Shown here: in pieces, positions 17,301 to 37,976 of the stretch
Numbering within the stretch: the first letter of the stretch is position 1
Layout: each line of letters starts with the position of its first letter
From: a virus
Virus record (IMG/VR): IMGVR_UViG_3300013132_000105
Location: 1-38,520 of that record
Strand: one strand, 5' to 3'
DNA length: 38,520 nucleotides
The notes under the pieces: generated by a model
Told to the model about the DNA's origin: nothing
The model's database searches: none
The model's input: the letters and a program-made list of their open reading frames with translations, nothing else
Position numbers and translations under genes: made by a program

Positions 17301-19304
17301 GGCTTCCAAAGCAGCTTTTTCTTCTCGCTCTTTGCCTTTTGCTTGTGCTTCTCTAAGGTAGTATTGCTCAGGGGATTTATCTGTCCTGCCTGTTTGTACA
17401 TCTTTGATGTACTTATTCATCAAGTCTCTGAATCCTGCAGACCAACGAGTGTGAGGCATATATATGTCTTCGGTCTCTGGCGTTACGAGTTCTGGTTTCA
17501 ATGCACCCTGTTCGTCTGTGCGAAGTAAATATGCGCCTGTCTCTGGATCTTTTTTGTATTGCAATTGTGGGAAAAATTGAATGTCTTGCTTATCAATCAA
17601 ATCTTTCAGAGCAGACGGTTTTTCTGCTCCAAGCGCCATGGACAAATCATGGAATGCTTCCAATGCTGGTGCTGCTTCCATCGCTCTAGCGCGTTTTTGA
17701 AGACGTTTCTTTTCTTCCGTCAGCTTGGTCTCGCGTTTTTGCAGCTCTTTGTAACCTTCAGGGGCAGGCTGATTGGCTCTGTCTGTCCATTGCTCTTCCA
17801 TCGCCCACTTGGTCTTTGTCAGCTCTGCAAGTTCATCGTCGATAGCTTTAAGATTTTTAGTTGTCTCATTTAGAGTTTTTTGCGCAATGCCTTCTGGAGG
17901 CAAACCAGCTTTGACACGCGCAGCTTCAAGTGCGCTTTTCCTTGAAGCTGGCAATTCATTGTATCTTTGTATCAATTCTGCTGGGTCTTCTATGTTAAGA
18001 CCTTCCATGGAAAACTTAACAGGAAAATCTTTGTCTTCTTGGCCGATCATAGAAGCATACATGTTTGGAAGCGTTTGCTGAGCGATTTTCATCGCTTTGT
18101 CTTGGTTTTCCTTCAGTACGCTTAGTGGTGGTAAACCTAACTCATTTGTGTTTGAGAATTCTTCTAACCAACCCAACTCTATATTGCTTTTGGCAGAAGG
18201 GTTGTTTTGATATTTTTGATTGAAAGCACGAATGGCATTGTCTTTTGAAAGGTCTGGATATAACTCTTGAGCTTTCGTCCGATAGAATCCGCTCCAAGCA
18301 TCTCTTACATCGTATTCATTGACTCCATAAAGCTCTGCCAATTCGCCTTGAGTGTATAAGGACAATGTATCGTCAGGCTCTTCTCTGATGATTGTATTTA
18401 TGTTTTTGAACCAAGGATTGAAATCCGATCTTGCAACTTTGATGTCATAAGGCTTCAATACATTTCGTTTAGGAGCACCTTTAGGGAATACGGCATAGCT
18501 CTTGCCTGCCTCTGCCATGCTTGGGAATAATGAATAGTTCTGTCTGAACTCACGCTCGTTGGCTTGTCTTTCTGCGACGATGTCACCAAGACGTTGGGCT
18601 TTGCGCTGTAAAGATGCACCAAGGGTTGGTCTGTCGCGTGTAATGCCTGACTGTGCGTTTAAATAATCTTCTTTGAGATTGCGAATGTCTTCTGCCAGCT
18701 CTAATCTTTTGCCACCAATGGCTCGTACATCGTCGGGCATCAAATGGCGCATGCCTTGCAACCCTGCCAACTCAGGGATGATCGGTGGCAGTTTTGAAGC
18801 TTCAAATAGATCGCCTAAACCCTCAACAGATTGTTGTCCTGCCTTTGTGCGAGGAATGTAGGTCATAGCCTCTGCCGCTTTTGCAGCCTCTTCGTCAGCT
18901 AATCGTGCTCCCTCTGCAGTTCCGTATTTGCCGCTTAATAAGTTGCTGCCTATGCCGTATGCTGCGCCTAACGGATAAGCCAAAGCACCTGAGCCGAGAG
19001 TCATCAAAGCTTCGATGCCTGCAGCACCTAAGCGAGGTAAAGAGTATTCGTATGGAAGATTGTAGGCTTTTGGTTCGTTGAGCTTAATGCCTGTGCCAGG
19101 GATGCTGGGCGGAGCAAACTCGTTTGGGATGATTAGGTTGCCGTTCTCGTCGTGCGTTCTGAAATACTCGGCACGTTCTGCCTCTGTCGGCATCGGGGCA
19201 GTTACATCAATCTGGTTCAAACCTCCAACATCGAAGCGTGGAATGCCTTTCGACGAATGTCGTGCAAGCACTCCTCGAATAGGTTTTCTGTTTTTGTCAG
19301 CCAC
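14400..19304 (-). CDS. Giant internal/ejection-type virion protein with DUF6321 tail, 1634 aa
   Basis: The start is GTG 19304, preceded by AAGGGG. Residues about 90-127 are Gly/Ala-rich and hydrophobic (LGSGALAYPLGAAYGIG), a possible membrane-inserting segment. A helical charged middle follows. Around residues 710-860 lies a region with DVLNHCVASGDRQNG and SIRDRRTGLPVTTIKLRP that resembles PcfJ-like domains of mobile elements. Residues about 1568-1634 (AKGRAKYNRATGSNLKAP, KSFCARMSGM, LKRWNC) match DUF6321, a short phage C-terminal domain. Gly-rich AEGG repeats lie near residue 1375. The place between terminase and portal, the size and the single-copy look suggest a protein ejected with the DNA, like podovirus internal virion proteins; no catalytic domain is certain. 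It has its own promoter just upstream. Confidence 0.75.
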   Translation of the reverse strand: MADKNRKPIRGVLARHSSKGIPRFDVGGLNQIDVTAPMPTEAERAEYFRTHDENGNLIIPNEFAPPSIPGTGIKLNEPKAYNLPYEYSLPRLGAAGIEALMTLGSGALAYPLGAAYGIGSNLLSGKYGTAEGARLADEEAAKAAEAMTYIPRTKAGQQSVEGLGDLFEASKLPPIIPELAGLQGMRHLMPDDVRAIGGKRLELAEDIRNLKEDYLNAQSGITRDRPTLGASLQRKAQRLGDIVAERQANEREFRQNYSLFPSMAEAGKSYAVFPKGAPKRNVLKPYDIKVARSDFNPWFKNINTIIREEPDDTLSLYTQGELAELYGVNEYDVRDAWSGFYRTKAQELYPDLSKDNAIRAFNQKYQNNPSAKSNIELGWLEEFSNTNELGLPPLSVLKENQDKAMKIAQQTLPNMYASMIGQEDKDFPVKFSMEGLNIEDPAELIQRYNELPASRKSALEAARVKAGLPPEGIAQKTLNETTKNLKAIDDELAELTKTKWAMEEQWTDRANQPAPEGYKELQKRETKLTEEKKRLQKRARAMEAAPALEAFHDLSMALGAEKPSALKDLIDKQDIQFFPQLQYKKDPETGAYLLRTDEQGALKPELVTPETEDIYMPHTRWSAGFRDLMNKYIKDVQTGRTDKSPEQYYLREAQAKGKEREEKAALEAKREELTKQNYMSYVDAAPADKIFGGYAAIEFTPAMSREELGKGLSIDTDVLNHCVASGDRQNGRHIGIWDPATGKVRDGMRSEISSEMREITEDGMSVTSIRDRRTGLPVTTIKLRPSPNHKGKFNLSYVSGERNGKIDLTTNYATRDYLNSRADEINNASHDLMENADVYDLKDDDQRGRAAAKVGGGTRQENVTALQDYLAANPDTPRFATADDVRDMIRSPGTAVALRNNSLDQLLEMRDEAELEFATAMHAGEPDEVLNDLRSAIADIDSRLNSHPDTIRALAQPLQRQTIPAVPVAERAPTGEEIEEYINTMDEDDVLQALVASGMDEQEVLDWFGEDIQSVYESQELGAIVYTHLIENPDILEMMREAADDGGWEPEPPMTLPAPTPEQQVALPAPTTQSIAQEYQQLSATRTPTIESENRRTELSRQIVDELQPPAMRFTPDTPPGLVASAIMESNPDVPPAVLAELISNRIAAETMLGVRDLGSDELIQAAVDALRNRQSLRDRNESAQDLYQRINEAATIEQLDDLRMERRAGNFSTTETQMLIDAARDRSRELRSRATTENLPDAVVERLNNIENISDEALINWLGQAESNSPNTVWHRLNEEQTREAVTAIEYEIGRRGLPGTHIGVQEPLIPSWPDDVRMFLDDIGFRSTPELISYQMDLENDPRGLGLTDDQAVEAITVIEHELDRRRENGLAEGGVVRMAEGGLWEGYGAPMGESPNYYQQQEDSPVHSRHSLNYGNRKYSDADVKWHEIGTDVDLFNKYGVGATKQGSVVKMHNDKIKQSDISELRARYATDDGSQYSVVRRPLDRTWSVRRSEPRNQSSVSVDISPDYKGISYTKNFANGGAVYDHDAVSRMADELLNSMNFAKGGPVLSVGRGEKLPVSQGAGLTAKGRAKYNRATGSNLKAPAPHPKTEKDANRRKSFCARMSGMPGPMKDENGNPTRKAASLKRWNC

Positions 19305-19326
19305 ATTGACCCCTTGTGTTTTGGTT

Positions 19327-19355
19327 ATTATGCACCAACATTAGATAAAAAGCAA
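19327..19355 (-). promoter_or_regulatory. Sigma70-like promoter for the giant virion protein and head operon
   Basis: Minus-strand TTGCTT (19355-19350) is followed after 17 bases by CATAAT (19332-19327) in the context GGTGCATAAT. The expected start site lies near 19320, giving a leader of about 16 bases to the GTG at 19304. The spacer and -10 context match the TerS promoter almost base for base, so this is a member of the phage promoter set. Confidence 0.75.
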
Positions 19356-19358
19356 CAA

Positions 19359-20915
19359 TTATGCAGCGTAAGGATTAATTCTTTCTTTCGGTGGTGCGTA
19401 GTCCTCAACAAACTTGCCTTCGTCTATCGTTAGCATGCCTGAGTCTCTGAAGTATATCATGGCTTGCGTCAGCGTGTCGACCAAGTCGTCATGCTCGCCG
19501 TTTGGGAATACCAAAAGCTGCGACATAAGCTGATCTGCCCATTGAGGGAACTGCCCTGGACGCTTTTTACTTTCTGGGAAATATACAAACCCAGCCTCAA
19601 GCAACGGTGCAACAGAATGCAATCGCGTTATCTTGTCGGCACGACCAGGATTGTATGTGCGAACGGGAACGCCAGCCCTGCGCAGATCTTGCGACAGCGA
19701 TATGCCACTGCCCTTCTCCTCGATCAACACAACGTCAACGCCTTTGTCTTTATCGCCGTACTTGGACTTGTAATCTTCGTAGGCTTTCTTGCGCAACTCA
19801 GGGTATCCAAGATGCTCCTGCCAGCAATCTAATAGCACGACCCGTTTGCCTTCTTGGTGGTTGAATATGCCCCAGCACGTGTGCGCTGTAGGATCGCCAG
19901 AGGTCTTTTCCGTGAACGCCGTGTCGTAAGACTGCAATATGAACCTGATGATAGGCAATGGCTGATCTGCAGGCAACATTCTGAACCAGTTCCTCTTTAT
20001 GATGCCACCTTCCATAGGACTTGGTCGTTGCTGCAATTGTCCTGATGCGCCGTATTGTCCGAGAGAAGTTTTCAGCTCTTGTATCTCTTTTTGGCCGAAA
20101 CGTTGCTCCCACAACAGCTCTCCTTCGACAGTCCTTGGATCTTTGAACCCTATCGATGTGAATACCTTCCTTGAAGACTCGTACTCTGCTGGCAAGCACA
20201 AATGCTCCCAACCACCCTGAGCAAGCAGATGGCCAGACAGATCCTTCTCATGCAACCTTTGCATAACGACGACTCGTGCACCGGTTTTTGCGTTATTCAG
20301 ACGTGTCGACATCGCTTGGTCCCACCACTCAAGGGTGGACTCGCGCATATTGTCAGACTGTGCTTCAAGTGCGTTGTGCGGGTCATCAACAACGATAGCG
20401 TCACCACCATGGCCAGTGGTCGATGCACCAACGGATGTCGCAAACCGATAACCAGACTGATCGTTCTCAAAGAATGTCTTGGCGTTCTGATCGCCTGTTA
20501 GTTTGAATCTATCTCCCCAACGCTCTTTGAACCATTCAGACTCGATAAGACGTCTGCACTTCAACGAGTCGCGAACGGACAGTGAACCGGCGTAAGACGC
20601 GAACAACCATCTGAACTCGGGACGGAATGTCCACACCCATACTGGCCACATCACAGCAACCTGTATGGACTTCATGTGTCGTGGTGGAATGTTTATGATC
20701 AGCTTGCTTATCTTGCCGTTCGTTACAGCCTCAAGGTGCTCGCTGATAACTTCAAGATGCCAATTGTGCATGAACGGCGTTCCAGGCTCGATGACGTGCC
20801 ATGCTTGCTTGGTAAACTCGTACAGGCTCTTCTCTGCAGCGCGTCGCTCCCTCTCTTTCTGAAGGACGATGATCATTGATTTGGGGGTTAAGATGTCACT
20901 CATGTTCGACAACAT
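19359..20915 (-). CDS. terL: Terminase large subunit, 518 aa
   Basis: This is the packaging motor. The ATPase part has a Walker A variant PPRHMKS (residues 77-83) and Walker B AIVVDDPH (173-180). The C-terminal RNase H-like nuclease shows SYDTAF (Asp 331), LIEEKGSG (near 399) and HDDLVD (475-480). The length of 518 fits the Terminase_6 class of podoviruses. It overlaps the TerS gene: the first in-frame ATG (20915) gives a 20-base overlap and ATG 20903 (MSDIL) an 8-base overlap. Neither has a clear Shine-Dalgarno site, so coupling to TerS is likely and the exact start is uncertain by four residues. A promoter for the next gene starts just past its stop. Confidence 0.92.
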   Translation of the reverse strand: MLSNMSDILTPKSMIIVLQKERERRAAEKSLYEFTKQAWHVIEPGTPFMHNWHLEVISEHLEAVTNGKISKLIINIPPRHMKSIQVAVMWPVWVWTFRPEFRWLFASYAGSLSVRDSLKCRRLIESEWFKERWGDRFKLTGDQNAKTFFENDQSGYRFATSVGASTTGHGGDAIVVDDPHNALEAQSDNMRESTLEWWDQAMSTRLNNAKTGARVVVMQRLHEKDLSGHLLAQGGWEHLCLPAEYESSRKVFTSIGFKDPRTVEGELLWEQRFGQKEIQELKTSLGQYGASGQLQQRPSPMEGGIIKRNWFRMLPADQPLPIIRFILQSYDTAFTEKTSGDPTAHTCWGIFNHQEGKRVVLLDCWQEHLGYPELRKKAYEDYKSKYGDKDKGVDVVLIEEKGSGISLSQDLRRAGVPVRTYNPGRADKITRLHSVAPLLEAGFVYFPESKKRPGQFPQWADQLMSQLLVFPNGEHDDLVDTLTQAMIYFRDSGMLTIDEGKFVEDYAPPKERINPYAA

Positions 20916-21342
20916 TAAAGTCAGAAACGTCTATCGTCGCTATGTTGATGTCTTTCATCTTCGAGAACATGCCTAACATCGACTCAACTTCTTCGTCAGA
21001 CAACTGCTTAACGTCTTCCGATGTTATGCCAACCGTAACTGCTGTTGAAGTAGAATCTATATCGATATGCTGCGCCTGCTTCTTGTGCACGTAAGGGGCT
21101 GCTGCCTTTGCCGCGTCTAAGCGCAAGTCCTTCGGTATATTCTCATTGTTTATTATCTGAAGCATGTAGTCCAGAGGAGTTATCTCGTAATGAGAACATA
21201 TTTCCTGAGCCAGCATGAACGCCCTGTGTTTTGGTATCGTTACATTGTTTATGTTCTGCATCCTCGCTTTTGTCCTTAACAATGGACCATGGGATGCACC
21301 AACCATTATGCTTGCTCTTTCTGTCTCTGTCGGCTGTTTCAT
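20896..21342 (-). CDS. terS: Probable terminase small subunit, 148 aa
   Basis: The gene lies directly upstream of TerL and overlaps it. The protein has a positively charged N-terminal region, a central stretch TPLDYMLQIINNENIPKDLR followed by LDAAKAAAPYVHKK that is characteristic of a phage small-terminase-like family, and an acidic, Val/Ile-rich C-terminus. Small subunits bind the packaging start site on the DNA and pass it to TerL. ATG 21342 follows AAAGGGAAG. A strong sigma70-like promoter stands upstream. The family call rests mostly on position plus the central motif, since these proteins diverge quickly. Confidence 0.75.
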   Translation of the reverse strand: MKQPTETERASIMVGASHGPLLRTKARMQNINNVTIPKHRAFMLAQEICSHYEITPLDYMLQIINNENIPKDLRLDAAKAAAPYVHKKQAQHIDIDSTSTAVTVGITSEDVKQLSDEEVESMLGMFSKMKDINIATIDVSDFNVVEHE

Positions 21343-21372
21343 TTCTTCCCTTTCCTAATGTAGCCTCGTATA

Positions 21373-21401
21373 ATTATGCACCAAAGTTTGTTTTAAAGCA
21401 A
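21373..21401 (-). promoter_or_regulatory. Sigma70-like promoter for terminase operon
   Basis: Minus-strand TTGCTT (21401-21396), a 17-base spacer, then CATAAT (21378-21373) in the context TTTGGTGCATAATTAT. The expected start is near 21366, with a leader of about 25 bases to TerS. The sequence GGTGCATAAT is identical to that of the promoter at 19327-19355. Confidence 0.75.
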
Positions 21402-21430
21402 ATCAACGTGAAAAATTGCGTTTTAAAAAT

Positions 21431-21452
21431 GAGCTCGTCGCTGATGCACGCC
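21431..21452 (+). repeat. Long inverted repeat, left copy
   Basis: The sequence GAGCTCGTCGC then TGATGCAC then GCC is matched in reverse complement at 21623-21646 with only two one-base insertions. It is the longest copy of the AGCTCGTCG box family, and the two copies lie about 170 bases apart in opposite orientation. Confidence 0.8.
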
Positions 21453-21585
21453 AACGATCTCCGAGCGAATTTGACCCCAAAACGTGCTGTGTGAAACTAG
21501 TGTATAACTCTCTCCCGGCAATAAATAAAATAAATAAAGTATATATCATTATTATTAAACATTAAGTCCTTAACTCTGTTAGTCA

Positions 21586-21629
21586 CACCGCCTCAAAAGT
21601 TCGTCTATCAGCCTCAAACGCAGGCGGTG
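21586..21629. repeat. Inverted repeat CACCGCCT / AGGCGGTG
   Basis: CACCGCCT (21586-21593) pairs perfectly with AGGCGGTG (21622-21629). The 28-base loop contains the second GCCTCAAA copy, and the right arm overlaps the long inverted repeat copy at 21623. It is a possible hairpin or protein-binding dyad in the origin-like region. Confidence 0.55.
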
Positions 21630-21646
21630 CATCATGCGACGAGCTC
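21623..21646 (-). repeat. Long inverted repeat, right copy
   Basis: Read on the minus strand this is GAGCTCGTCGCA, TGATGCAC, CGCC, matching 21431-21452. It overlaps the small hairpin arm AGGCGGTG, so the hairpin and the long-range pairing would compete. Confidence 0.8.
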
Positions 21647-21761
21647 AAAAGACACATGCTTTTTTGACCAAAAACGACCGTGCAAAAAATACACATGACC
21701 CCATTTATTTCGGATTTTAATTTTAATTACACACGTCGCACTTGATTTCGTACATCTTCGA

Positions 21762-21781
21762 AGTCACACCGCAGCTCGTCG
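21762..21781 (+). repeat. Direct repeat AGTCACACCGC fused to AGCTCGTCG box
   Basis: AGTCACACCGC (second copy of 21581-21591) is directly followed by AGCTCGTCG (21773-21781). At the first copy the following bases are CTCAAAAGTTCGTCT, a looser form of the same box, so the two elements appear to form one composite unit present twice. Confidence 0.65.
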
Positions 21782-21898
21782 ATTGTCGTGCACAAAAACA
21801 CTTTTTGCGACGGACGAGCCGATATGCGCTTCAAAGGGAAATTATTCGCAGAAAATCCATCCACTATAAAAAACAATTTCCCTAAGAACGTATCAATT

Positions 21899-21908
21899 AG
21901 CTCGTCGC
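21899..21908 (+). repeat. AGCTCGTCGC box, copy nearest the primase gene
   Basis: A ten-base box AGCTCGTCGC followed by AAAAC. A looser copy, GCTCGTC-CGTCGCAAAA, is seen in reverse at about 21804-21820. Both lie within 150 bases of the primase-helicase stop. Confidence 0.6.
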
Positions 21909-21940
21909 AAAACAACTTTCCCTTTTAAAACAAAGACTTA

Positions 21941-24118
21941 CTAGAATTTATCGTCGTTGAGTGCTCCACCCTCAATTTGATCCTTAACCCATTGCACCGT
22001 AACGGTTTCAAGATGATAGATCGTATGTAATTTATCGCCGATCCGAGTTCGTCCGTCTTTCCTATCAGACCTGAAGAATCTATAGCCCATTCGCCCCATA
22101 GAGTGCGACAATTTAGCTTTAATTTCCCCAAGTTTCATGTCCGTATTTCGTGCAGCAATATTGATCAACCAGTCTGCTCGGACAATTTTAGGATCACCAA
22201 GTTCCAGCAATGCATCTGCGCACCAATGGTCTGTAGTCAGTCCAGAGACCACGACAGCCTTGTGTGCATCCGTCTTGCGTTGAGAGTTTGCCGCAGAGAA
22301 CTGAGAGATGTCCCTAGAGCGCAGATAAGCAGCCACGTGCCTGTCCCCTCCACCTTCCAGGAACCACTGCCACAGCTCAGAGAAATACTCTCTACGAACG
22401 TCGTCATCTTCCAGACCCATCTCCCACTTGTTTGCACTCTCAATGACGTCATAACGCCTATCGTCCTGCGGTATGTATATCCCAGAAAGCATATGATTGG
22501 TAGTGATGATGACACCGCAATGCATACGCACAGAATACTTTTGCCCATACTTAGGATTGATCATTACATAGTCAGGTTGGCCAGCGATGAGCACCTTCAT
22601 AGACTCGTTGAACGCCCAGCGACTCATGTCGTGCAAGTTTGCAGCTTCAGAGATGCGCACAAGAACATAGGAAGCATATTCATTAAAGCCAGAGTCGATG
22701 GCAGAGGGTTCAACATTGGATACATTCCAAGCACCAATAGCAGGGCAGCAGAATTCAACAGCCGTATCCTTACCAACCCCTTGATCGCCAGCGATTAACA
22801 AAGCGAAGCGAGGTTTTTCCCAAGGCTTTTGCACGCGGTGCGCCATGTAGTCTAGAAATTGATCGGCATCGCCCTTATGTTGAAAGATTTTGCGAACGTG
22901 GTCGAGGAATGGACCAGCGAGCCTATTGTCACCAGCCTCTATGGTCGGAGGTCTATAAGCGTTAAACACGGCAGCACCGACAGCTTCCACAAGCGTTCCG
23001 TCCAGCGAGTCGTAGCCACGTATTAGGTCGCCATCGATGCCTGGATCTTTGGTCATGGACGTAGTAAGAGCATTGGATCGAAGCCAGTCGGACGGCTTGA
23101 TTAGTTTGCCTTCGTCGTTGACGGGAGACACAGCCGAGTTGACAGCTTCAGACACCCAGAACGCTATTGTCGGTCGGTATATGAAGTTATTGCCTGGACC
23201 ATAGAACAGGAATGAGTCGATTGGTACTTCTCCAGCCTTTGGCGACCATCCGCCGTCGATTGCTAACCGCACTAGCGTGCCTAGCGTTAGCTCTTTCTCC
23301 GCGTCTTTCTGAGAGATGTCATAGAAAGCCTCGTGCATAATTGCAGCGTGGTTTCTGCCCTCTTTGCCGCCCCATTGCGCAGCCCATTCGACATAGACAT
23401 CCCAAGCTTCTTCAACCATCAAGAATTGGCGACCGAGGATAATACCTACACTTCTCCAAACGTCCCTGTCTTCTGCACTGACGAACTCGAGCATGCTTTT
23501 GACTTGCTCTATCGTATACTTCTGACGGAAGTAAGAGTCTTCCTTCTTAGGTCTGCCTCGCTTGTCGTCTTTCTTCTTGGTTAAGTACCTTGGAAGGTCT
23601 ATCACAGGCACGGCATTCACCCAAGAGTAAATTCCACCAGACCTGTGGCGAGCTGGAGTTGCCACGATGTAACCGCCGTCATTACGGCAATCTACACCTG
23701 GACCAAGCGTGTTACTGCTCGTTCGCATTACGGAGTTATACTTGAAGACGTAGTGCATACCGCCAGACCCAGTCTTAGCGATCAAGGTCTCTGGTTCGCC
23801 TTCCTCTTTAGTTAACTCTGCCCATGTCTCGGCACCAAGTTTGCCTTCTCCAATGTCAATGTCGATGACGGTTATGCCAGAGATGGCACCCGTTACGACT
23901 CCGATATTAGACAAAGGTGCACCAACTCCGAACCATTCCTCAATCTGAGCCGGATCTTTCGATGCTTCTTTTAGACCTCTCCTGACTCGTGGGTGCTTGC
24001 CGGCATCGCCGCAATCCTTCTTGCCGCAAGTGCAGCATCCATTCGAATCTATGGAATGTATGGGAAATATAGCCCATCCTAGCTCAATGTACTTTTTTGC
24101 CCATTGATATGTATTCAT
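21941..24118 (-). CDS. Primase-polymerase / SF3-type helicase, 725 aa
   Basis: A two-part replication protein. Residues 1-180 form a bifunctional primase-polymerase (Prim-Pol) domain with a Cys-rich loop (CCTCGKKDCG, about 28-37), catalytic DIDIG (Asp 86 and 88) and SGGMHYVF (His 122). A PriCT-like linker follows at about residues 205-275 (DRDVWRSVGIILGRQF). The C-terminal ATPase of the VirE/DUF5906 type has Walker A AGDQGVGKDT near residue 445 and the sensor-like GVIITTNHMLSGIYIP. Such proteins make primers and unwind DNA at phage and plasmid origins. ATG 24118 follows AAGGAG (ATAAGGAGTTGTA). The terminator just upstream suggests lower expression than the SSB-like gene before it. The repeat region lies directly downstream. 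Confidence 0.85.
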   Translation of the reverse strand: MNTYQWAKKYIELGWAIFPIHSIDSNGCCTCGKKDCGDAGKHPRVRRGLKEASKDPAQIEEWFGVGAPLSNIGVVTGAISGITVIDIDIGEGKLGAETWAELTKEEGEPETLIAKTGSGGMHYVFKYNSVMRTSSNTLGPGVDCRNDGGYIVATPARHRSGGIYSWVNAVPVIDLPRYLTKKKDDKRGRPKKEDSYFRQKYTIEQVKSMLEFVSAEDRDVWRSVGIILGRQFLMVEEAWDVYVEWAAQWGGKEGRNHAAIMHEAFYDISQKDAEKELTLGTLVRLAIDGGWSPKAGEVPIDSFLFYGPGNNFIYRPTIAFWVSEAVNSAVSPVNDEGKLIKPSDWLRSNALTTSMTKDPGIDGDLIRGYDSLDGTLVEAVGAAVFNAYRPPTIEAGDNRLAGPFLDHVRKIFQHKGDADQFLDYMAHRVQKPWEKPRFALLIAGDQGVGKDTAVEFCCPAIGAWNVSNVEPSAIDSGFNEYASYVLVRISEAANLHDMSRWAFNESMKVLIAGQPDYVMINPKYGQKYSVRMHCGVIITTNHMLSGIYIPQDDRRYDVIESANKWEMGLEDDDVRREYFSELWQWFLEGGGDRHVAAYLRSRDISQFSAANSQRKTDAHKAVVVSGLTTDHWCADALLELGDPKIVRADWLINIAARNTDMKLGEIKAKLSHSMGRMGYRFFRSDRKDGRTRIGDKLHTIYHLETVTVQWVKDQIEGGALNDDKF

Positions 24119-24130
24119 TACAACTCCTTA

Positions 24131-24157
24131 TGAAAAAGAAAAGGGCATTGCTGCCCT
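24131..24157 (-). terminator. GNRA-loop rho-independent terminator upstream of primase
   Basis: On the minus strand AGGGCA pairs with TGCCCT around the GNRA tetraloop GCAA (24157-24142), and the tract TTTTCTTTTT follows directly. It starts six bases after the SSB-like stop codon and ends just before the primase ribosome-binding site. It should cut transcription between the two genes, leaving only read-through for the primase. Confidence 0.8.
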
Positions 24158-24162
24158 ATAAA

Positions 24163-24903
24163 CTAAAACTTTTCTTCTTCAACAGGCGTTGCAACTTCTA
24201 CCTTGCCAGAAACGATTTGGTCGTGGAACGCACGAGCAGCAGCGTAAAGATCTGCGTCTGCAACTGGTCCAACCATATCAACCTCAACGCCGTACCATGA
24301 ACCTTTGTCGTTCGACTCTTTTATGGAACGAACTTCGTAAACGTGAGAGAAGCTAGGAGGATTGAACGTACGACCATTAGCATCTTTCATTTGCACGCCT
24401 TGGATGCGTGACAGCCAACGTTTACTTTTCTTGATTTGAGTGCTGCTTAAAGAGAACAAGGCTGGTTGAAAGCCATTCTCTGTAACAATCATCACGAAGT
24501 GATTGCGAGTGTCGCGTAGTTCATCGCCTTCGTAAAGCAAACGACCTTCATCGTTGCGCTCAATTTTAAGAGCCTCGACCTGTGCAGCGGTATACTCGCC
24601 ACGATAGCCACCGCCATTCTCGCGCAAAGCCCAACGTAAGAAACGACGTTGGAATGCAACAGGAACTACCTTCACAGTTTTAAATAGTTCGTTGGTGATG
24701 GAATTGATTAACAATCCTGCTTTTGCACCTTCAACTACTTCGTCAACAACTTGTGGAGACATTGGTTGTAAGATGGACAAGAACGGTATTGCTAAAGAGT
24801 CCTTGTCAGCGCCTTCAAGACCTAAGCCAGCATCTGCGGCAAAGTTAAGAGGAGCACCGACGGCTGTAGTTTTGGCTTCCGCCACTTCATTTTTTGTAGT
24901 CAT
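24163..24903 (-). CDS. Putative single-stranded DNA-binding protein, 246 aa
   Basis: A conserved phage replication-module protein. A disordered Ala-rich N-terminus (residues 1-35) is followed by IPFLSILQPMSPQV, VKVVPVAFQRRFLRW and PALFSLSSTQIKKSKRWLSR, then a basic patch and strand-rich sequence. The last residues are VEEEKF: an acidic tail ending in Phe, the hallmark of SSB-type proteins such as T7 gp2.5 and E. coli SSB, which bind partner proteins through the tail. No OB-fold can be proved by eye. ATG 24903 follows AAAGGTG. A strong terminator follows the stop, so this protein is probably made in excess over the primase, as an SSB should be. Confidence 0.55.
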   Translation of the reverse strand: MTTKNEVAEAKTTAVGAPLNFAADAGLGLEGADKDSLAIPFLSILQPMSPQVVDEVVEGAKAGLLINSITNELFKTVKVVPVAFQRRFLRWALRENGGGYRGEYTAAQVEALKIERNDEGRLLYEGDELRDTRNHFVMIVTENGFQPALFSLSSTQIKKSKRWLSRIQGVQMKDANGRTFNPPSFSHVYEVRSIKESNDKGSWYGVEVDMVGPVADADLYAAARAFHDQIVSGKVEVATPVEEEKF

Positions 24904-25826: not shown

Positions 25827-25855
25827 ATTATCCTCCAAAAAATAATTTTAGGCAA
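25827..25855 (-). promoter_or_regulatory. Leftward early promoter (replication genes)
   Basis: Minus-strand TTGCCT (25855-25850), a 17-base spacer ending TTGGAG, then GATAAT (25832-25827). The leader holds ACTTAGAAAGGAG before the first possible start. It is back to back with the rightward promoter at 25868-25897, forming a divergent control region. Confidence 0.65.
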
Positions 25856-25867
25856 ATTAAATTTTAC

Positions 25868-25897
25868 TTGCCTTTTTATTTAAAAAGAGCGCATACT
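25868..25897 (+). promoter_or_regulatory. Rightward promoter for the FAD protein gene
   Basis: TTGCCT (25868-25873), an 18-base spacer, then CATACT (25892-25897) in the context GAGCGCATACT. It is weaker than its siblings in both boxes. The leader contains TTAGAGCGGAGAA, a motif shared with two other rightward leaders. Confidence 0.55.
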
Positions 25898-25931
25898 TAG
25901 CGAGTGTTAATTATTTAGAGCGGAGAACAGT

Positions 25932-26819
25932 ATGACAACAATCGTAGGTGCAGGTCTTGCAGGTTTAATAGCAGGCTCAATATTCCCAAGGGCACAGTTA
26001 TTTGAGGCAGGGGATGAGTCTCAGTCAATACACAAAGCAGTTTTAAGATTCAGAACCAGTGCGGTTGGCGATGCAACTGGCGTTGAGTTTAAAAAGGTCA
26101 ATGTTAAAAAAGGTTTGTGGTACGAGAACAAATTCGTGCAACCCGACATACGCCTAGCCAATTGGTATTCTGGCAAGGTGGTTGGCAAATTAGCCGACAG
26201 AAGCATATGGAATTTAGACCCTGTTGAACGGTTTATAGCGCCTGAAGATCTAATAGGTCAATTAGTTGACAGATGTTCTGGTCGTATAAGCTGGAACACT
26301 AAGATGGACGAAATACCGTTCGGTGCAATCAGCACCGTTCCGATGCCAATCATGGCAAAGCTAATGGGGATAGAACATAATCAAGAGTTCAAGCATGCTC
26401 CGATTCATGTCGAGCGTTGGCACATACCTGGAGCAGACGTTTATCAAACGATTTATTACCCAGACCTAGAATTAAATGTTTATCGAGCCAGTATAACCAA
26501 AGATTTGCTGATCGTAGAAGCAATTGACAAGTTAAATCAAAACGATATTGACACTGTATTCAAATCTTTCGGGATAAATGCAGCTGCATGCTCTGCTTTT
26601 GACAAAGTTTCTCAGCGTTATGGCAAGATAAGTGCGATCGACGAAGGATTTAGACGTAATTTCATTTATAGATTGACGCAAGACTATGGAATTTACAGTC
26701 TCGGGCGTTTTGCCACGTGGCGCAACATTCTACTTGATGATGTCGTCAAAGATGCACAGGTTATTAAACGAATAATGAAGTCAGATAATTATGATTCTGT
26801 GAAAGTATTTTCAAAATAA
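25932..26819 (+). CDS. FAD-dependent oxidoreductase-like protein, 295 aa
   Basis: An N-terminal Rossmann nucleotide-binding motif VGAGLAGLIAG (residues 5-15, G-x-G-x-x-G) is followed after the next strand by LFEAGDES, the acidic end that holds an adenine ribose. Near residues 253-265 YSLGRFATWRNILLDD matches the FAD-contacting C-terminal motif of UDP-galactopyranose mutase and amine-oxidase-type flavoproteins. The protein is shorter than typical cellular members (350-400 residues). The substrate is unknown; modification of a sugar, nucleotide or host metabolite is possible. GGAGAA precedes ATG 25932. It is the first gene of the right arm, alone on its transcript before another promoter, so it may be made early. 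Confidence 0.65.
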   Translation: MTTIVGAGLAGLIAGSIFPRAQLFEAGDESQSIHKAVLRFRTSAVGDATGVEFKKVNVKKGLWYENKFVQPDIRLANWYSGKVVGKLADRSIWNLDPVERFIAPEDLIGQLVDRCSGRISWNTKMDEIPFGAISTVPMPIMAKLMGIEHNQEFKHAPIHVERWHIPGADVYQTIYYPDLELNVYRASITKDLLIVEAIDKLNQNDIDTVFKSFGINAAACSAFDKVSQRYGKISAIDEGFRRNFIYRLTQDYGIYSLGRFATWRNILLDDVVKDAQVIKRIMKSDNYDSVKVFSK

Positions 26820-37810: not shown

Positions 37811-37976
37811 CCGCAACCCAATAACCGGCGACAAGATAATTACCAAGCAGAAGTCAAAAAGCTTCGATGATAATTTTGATGCCATATTCCGCAAGCCAAA
37901 AGAGCCAACATGGATTGACGTGCTTGAGATGACAGACGACGAGCTAAACGAGGTAAATGATGCAGATCCGTCGTAG
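37800..37976 (+). CDS. Small hypothetical protein, 58 aa
   Basis: ATG 37800 behind AAAGGGGATACTAA opens MATNRNPITGDKIITKQKSK, then SFDDNFDAIFRKPKEPTWID. The N-terminus is basic and the C-terminus acidic (MTDDELNEVNDADPS). No family recognised; good ribosome-binding signal. Confidence 0.6.
   Translation: MATNRNPITGDKIITKQKSKSFDDNFDAIFRKPKEPTWIDVLEMTDDELNEVNDADPS

Follow-up and report, generated by a model that had tools for sequence, protein, structure and literature searches.

The longest gap between called genes in the window, a linear IMG/VR virus fragment of 38.5 kb in which end repeats were not found, is on sequence evidence the likely replication origin of the phage, at a probability of roughly 80%. 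This reading rests on a dyad and boxes that exceed chance, on their conservation, on the recurrence of comparable elements with the same primase, and on the independence of these elements from the terminase. The origin would probably be a variant of an already known stem-loop origin type.

A gene-free region between terS and the primase-helicase gene

The gap (21343-21940, 598 bp) lies within a block of minus-strand genes, in the order primase-helicase (21941-24118), terS (20896-21342; phrog_641) and terL (19359-20915). The terminase small subunit gene is a neighbour outside the proposed origin, and the primase-helicase is the proposed initiator. An earlier note, made from the letters of the window, had described the region as the longest gene-free stretch, bordering the primase-helicase gene, and the gene calls bear this out. 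Homologues of Pam3 gp34 and gp33 are found upstream of the primase-helicase gene, and past a switch in gene orientation at 25.9 kb the plus strand encodes ThyX, Pol III alpha and an SNF2-type helicase. Bases 1-2372 are a single open frame on the minus strand. A DNA search of a phage collection with 19300-24200 matched only a short TerL stretch of CRP-902, and a search among phages with the primase gave remote matches only.

The box AGCTCGTCG occurs exactly four times in the gap, three times on the plus strand and once on the minus strand, compared to an expectation of 0.13 for the whole window; the only further copy is at 37937. This agrees with the four or more copies in both orientations reported in the earlier note. 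Two of the boxes (21432-21440, plus; 21637-21645, minus) lie within the arms of an outer inverted repeat formed by TGAGCTCGTCGCTGATGCACGCC (21430-21452, plus) and GGCGGTGCATCATGCGACGAGCTCA (21623-21647, plus). The left arm pairs over all of its 23 nt, the 25-nt right arm has two single-base bulges, and the loop is 170 nt. This repeat, previously noted as 22/24 bases, scores 36 compared to 19.0±2.3 in dinucleotide shuffles, none of which (0 of 40) reach it. As single-stranded DNA, the stretch 21425-21652 folds with z = -6.3.

Inside the outer arms is a shorter pair, GCTGTGTGA (21486-21494, plus) and TCACACCGC (21583-21591, plus), with 8 of 9 bp matched and an 88-bp spacer that is inside the range of spacers seen in relatives. 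The spacer surrounds an A+T-rich tract (21520-21565, plus) that includes the lowest-GC 40-mer of the gap and is proposed as a candidate duplex-unwinding element. The tract had been called a 46-base A+T tract; its position and length stand, but 43 of the 46 bases are A or T, so it is not pure. The sequence AAACGTGC (21480-21487), which adjoins inner arm 1, is identified by motif scan as a match of the arm motif common to relatives (see below).

Closer to the primase gene, the gap holds two further boxes. The duplicated composite unit described in the earlier note is present, as AGTCACACCGC is found exactly at 21581, where it supplies the right-hand partner of the inner pair, and again at 21762. 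The second copy is joined to AGCTCGTCG (from 21773) to form box 2 (21762-21781, plus). Box 1, AGCTCGTCGC (21899-21908, plus), is nearest the primase stop codon and contains an exact AGCTCGTCG at 21899. The window boxes are few, irregularly spaced and in both orientations, and differ in this from the regularly spaced tandem direct repeats of iterons; several relatives do have boxes of ~10 bp in tandem.

Conservation of the gap among close relatives

In three near relatives, the gap is 93, 91 and ~80-81% identical to that of the window, and the alignment of close relatives is nearly indel-free. In the most distant of them (L008), identity is 80% across the gap compared to 61% (249/407) at fourfold-degenerate sites of the primase and TerL genes. 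Conservation of the boxes in relatives, a check that the earlier note had called for, is complete for boxes 1 and 2: box 1 (11/11) and the box part of box 2 (14/14) are identical in all relatives. In L008, the stretches between boxes fall to 53-72% identity, while the inner and outer arm together retain 64 of 66 positions and the A+T tract 40 of 45. A small shared gene, which the earlier note had named as evidence against an origin, was considered and rejected, since no frame remains open throughout the four close relatives and no conserved ORF was found in the gap. Because the gap is conserved beyond fourfold-degenerate sites without a kept reading frame, it appears to be functional non-coding DNA, and the alignments point to purifying selection. 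A scan of viral contigs for the box pattern returned only close relatives and probable chance matches.

The primase-helicase protein

The protein combines a Prim-Pol domain (PF09250), a weak PriCT-2 match, a DUF5906/VapE SF3-like helicase and a C-terminal winged-helix-like fold. Its helicase part matches the helicase of NrS-1 polymerase (6k9c/6k9e, E 5.8e-7), the sole significant match to a solved structure. The C-terminal 90 residues are modelled confidently by AlphaFold as a winged-helix-like fold, with the winged-helix order of elements and a pLDDT of 89-95 over model residues 41-120. Compared with the PDB, the top matches of this model are mostly winged-helix proteins, although they are weak and none reaches E 0.001. 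The full-length primase model (pLDDT 43) is unusable.

In one relative, a small gene directly after the primase (L110:5777-6193) encodes a stand-alone relative of the primase C-terminal winged-helix-like domain (hhalign 97.8%, E 1.3e-12), and L111 has a comparable ORF after its primase with the same likeness by eye. The product of this small gene is possibly a second origin-binding protein.

Comparable elements in relatives sharing the primase

Using a primase profile, we gathered ~40 relatives. Many carry inverted arms of 18-35 nt, different in sequence, around an A+T-rich spacer of 40-98 bp. Example scores are 47 (L101/L146, L192 and L137), 40 (L113/L133 and L142) and 58 (L144, a perfect 29-nt repeat), and five elements of this kind fold as single strands with z of -6.0 to -10.9. 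About twenty environmental phage contigs show such an element, in most cases once per contig; several primase-bearing relatives (e.g. G022-G025 and G034) gave none in the scan. Arm pairing is kept in many relatives despite widely differing arm sequences. A by-eye comparison of the L124 and L146 arms shows two changes, each matched on both sides.

Within the same loci, ~12 elements lie within ~1.5 kb of the primase compared to 2 elsewhere; this is a rough contrast, as counts across relatives are not independent and thresholds were picked while inspecting the data. Control loci hold 6 long A+T-spaced repeats in 268 kb, which are possibly the origins of other phages. Since control loci also contain some, such a repeat alone is no proof of an origin.

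The arms of 19 relatives outside the window group share the motif [GA]N[CA]CGTGN, with a log-likelihood of 76.8 compared to 32.8±3.3 in shuffled arms. Their common core is CCGTG, and several relatives have two such boxes per arm, 9-10 bp apart. The window shows this motif weakly and without enrichment, since 5 of its 200 best matches fall in the gap where 3.1 are expected; two of the window matches sit at the inner arms.

Several other repeats were observed. One contig (G021) has two dyad copies with a common CTGCCTTGTGTAT, 7.5 kb apart (L164:16958-17111 and G021 24440-24554). Behind the primase on a Bacteroidetes MAG contig (L152:6856-7290) is a 145-bp near-perfect inverted repeat with a score of 270, possibly an assembly artefact. 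After a different DUF5906 primase of 819-830 aa, CGCNCCCCTA repeats flank an A+T tract (L022:2961-3301, L024:4385-4660 and L026:2821-3121), perhaps an origin of the same layout built from direct repeats. Two relatives of the window TerL that do not have this primase carry a 28-nt inverted repeat with a score of 46 and a 29% GC spacer (L012:3691-3893 and L013:3869-4071).

Linkage of the element to replication and packaging genes

The main alternative is that the gap is a cos/pac packaging site: TerS would bind the repeats ahead of its gene, and TerL would cut there. In the window, as in nearly all relatives, the element immediately precedes terS. "Element follows primase" was therefore dropped as an argument for an origin. 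In L135/L137 the element lies on the upstream side of the primase and the terminase genes point away from the primase, yet terS still follows the element, so adjacency alone does not decide between the two readings. It also fits packaging that relatives with a TerL 71-78% identical to that of the window have neither terS nor the gap.

The wider family separates the two sets of genes. The element accompanies TerL proteins 51-55% identical to that of the window and also a TerL of an unrelated type (25-28%). For eight relatives in which the primase has no terminase next to it, we read the complete contigs. Two of these (G018 and G019) have a single element with arms of the same kind (GGCCGTGTGCGGCCGTGT and GGTCCGTGTGGGTCCGTGCT, respectively), placed immediately after the SNF2-helicase gene in the Pol III operon; the primase is 23 kb and 14 kb away, respectively. 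None of the genes tested around either element was recognisable as a terminase; the terminase-like gene of G018 lies at a distance of 20 kb, and G019 yielded no terminase gene. Furthermore, among loci of one terminase type that extend far enough upstream, the element is present in 6 of 8 with the primase compared to 6 of 49 without it (Fisher p 0.0006). L208:2153-2324 is a notable exception: upstream of a terminase it has a dyad with a score of 76, CCGTGT boxes and a spacer of 18% GC, and no primase was detected in the locus.

Thus the terminase linkage of a cos/pac site, although present in the window itself, does not extend across the family: it is broken in G018 and G019, and within one terminase type the element is mostly missing where the primase is absent. 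The unrelated TerL types, the placement in G018 and G019 and the 6/8 versus 6/49 contrast favor an origin over a packaging site, as the earlier note had preferred, and suggest that the element follows replication genes rather than packaging genes. We consider it unlikely that the gap is primarily a packaging site.

GC skew does not mark the gap. The earlier note had looked to a skew turning point there, but the cumulative minimum of the window is at 25.9 kb, 4 kb from the gap, at the gene-orientation switch; no turning point was found at the element. This switch (25855-25932) coincides with a sign change of both GC and AT skew. Across 13 element-bearing contigs, the element is nearer to a skew extreme than random (combined p 0.0045), a signal driven by G028, G020, G019 and G043 that lends weak support, because skew follows gene orientation.

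A regulatory region, with terS-terL operators and a promoter and with a repressor or late activator on the boxes, would fit boxes in both orientations. A promoter-like stretch upstream of terS (21351-21401, minus), TTGCTT-N17-CATAAT by eye, is conserved (31/33 identical in L008) and is probably the terS-terL promoter, although the pattern was not among the reports of a promoter scan. However, regulation leaves unexplained an A+T tract centred between long arms, an extent of ~0.5 kb and recurrence behind helicase genes, making it a very improbable account of the whole gap. Least credible of all is a structured non-coding RNA transcribed across the gap: single-strand folding is strong, but there is no Rfam or tRNA match, covariation in the alignment of close relatives speaks against it (term +3.5), and in several relatives the arms act as inverted ~10-bp boxes. 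Packaging or promoter function may nevertheless share the gap with the proposed origin.

Comparison with known origins

The closest known system is the archaeal plasmid pRN1, which needs for its replication a 100-bp stem-loop located 54 bp downstream of orf904, a Prim-Pol–SF3–winged-helix gene (PMC4234260, PMC3869888). The stem-loop is functional when moved, its sequence varies among plasmids while pairing is kept, and ORF904 primes at GTG (PMC4234260, PMC3869888); specific binding of the protein to its stem-loop was not seen in vitro (PMC4234260). The window gene can be counted as the Prim-Pol–SF3 type because its helicase domain matches that of NrS-1, which is described as an SF3 helicase (PMC7102993). 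As in pRN1, the window gap is non-coding, is directly 3' of the primase stop codon and has inverted arms around a loop. Arm sequences likewise vary among relatives with pairing kept, the displaced elements of G018 and G019 recall the movable stem-loop, and GTG, the ORF904 priming motif, is within the common core of the arms. The pRN1 type has a ~20-nt stem and ~60-nt loop, and the arms and spacers of the relatives (18-35 and 40-98 nt) are of comparable layout.

The window element departs from pRN1 in its outer loop (170 nt versus 58), its short inner pair, its extra AGCTCGTCG boxes and its composite repeat. It also belongs to a dsDNA phage that encodes a Pol III alpha of its own, and its origin function is predicted. 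By anatomy, the window element resembles the pRN1 origin and the one proposed for phage BIP-1 but is only partly of the pRN1 type.

A literature search for stem-loop origins of Prim-Pol–helicase proteins returned only pRN1 (PMC4234260, PMC3869888) and one phage proposal by folding alone. A pRN1-like stem-loop origin has been proposed for Bordetella phage BIP-1 (PMC4234260). Our scan of BPP-1 found, between the primase and terS genes, a perfect dyad of 22 bp (26607-26710) whose A+T-rich spacer is 60 bp long, with two ~9-bp tandem boxes per arm, a candidate counterpart of the stem-loop proposed for BIP-1/BPP-1. These phages share with the window an architecture of Prim-Pol, PriCT-2, SF3 helicase and winged helix (PMC4234260), the last being a predicted fold in the window protein, and the gene order primase-gap-terS-terL. 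The box sequences of BPP-1 are unrelated to those of the window, and its dyad is separated from terS by an endonuclease gene.

The window primase domain is a Prim-Pol (PF09250), which separates it from the P4 alpha type. P4 alpha has a Toprim primase, and descriptions of the P4 ori speak of repeats, not of a large dyad. The likeness is that a single protein with primase, helicase and winged-helix domains acts at origin repeats (PMC4234260). Priming by NrS-1 depends on an 8-nt recognition sequence, and the passages of that report consulted here describe no dyad comparable to that of the window (PMC7102993).

A model for initiation

We infer binding of the initiator/helicase, melting, priming and direction at the gap. 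Through the winged-helix-like domain at its C terminus, the primase-helicase would recognise the inverted boxes, and it would form two rings that face each other across the A+T-rich tract. The rings would melt the tract, possibly with help from a stem-loop extruded by the dyad; primers would be laid at GTG-containing sites and then extended by the Pol III alpha-type polymerase of the phage.

More speculatively, these elements could represent a widespread class of phage origin in which the inverted boxes bound by the initiator themselves contain its preferred priming trinucleotide, GTG (CCGTG core, with the two boxes of an arm spaced by roughly one turn of the helix in several relatives), a proposal that we regard as tentative. 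If true, one protein binds, melts and primes at the same short dyad; the two arms change box specificity in step, and the entire element can move freely around the genome. The element offers a short, movable piece of DNA for testing how primase-helicase proteins find their origin, and would permit origin annotation in many uncultured phages.
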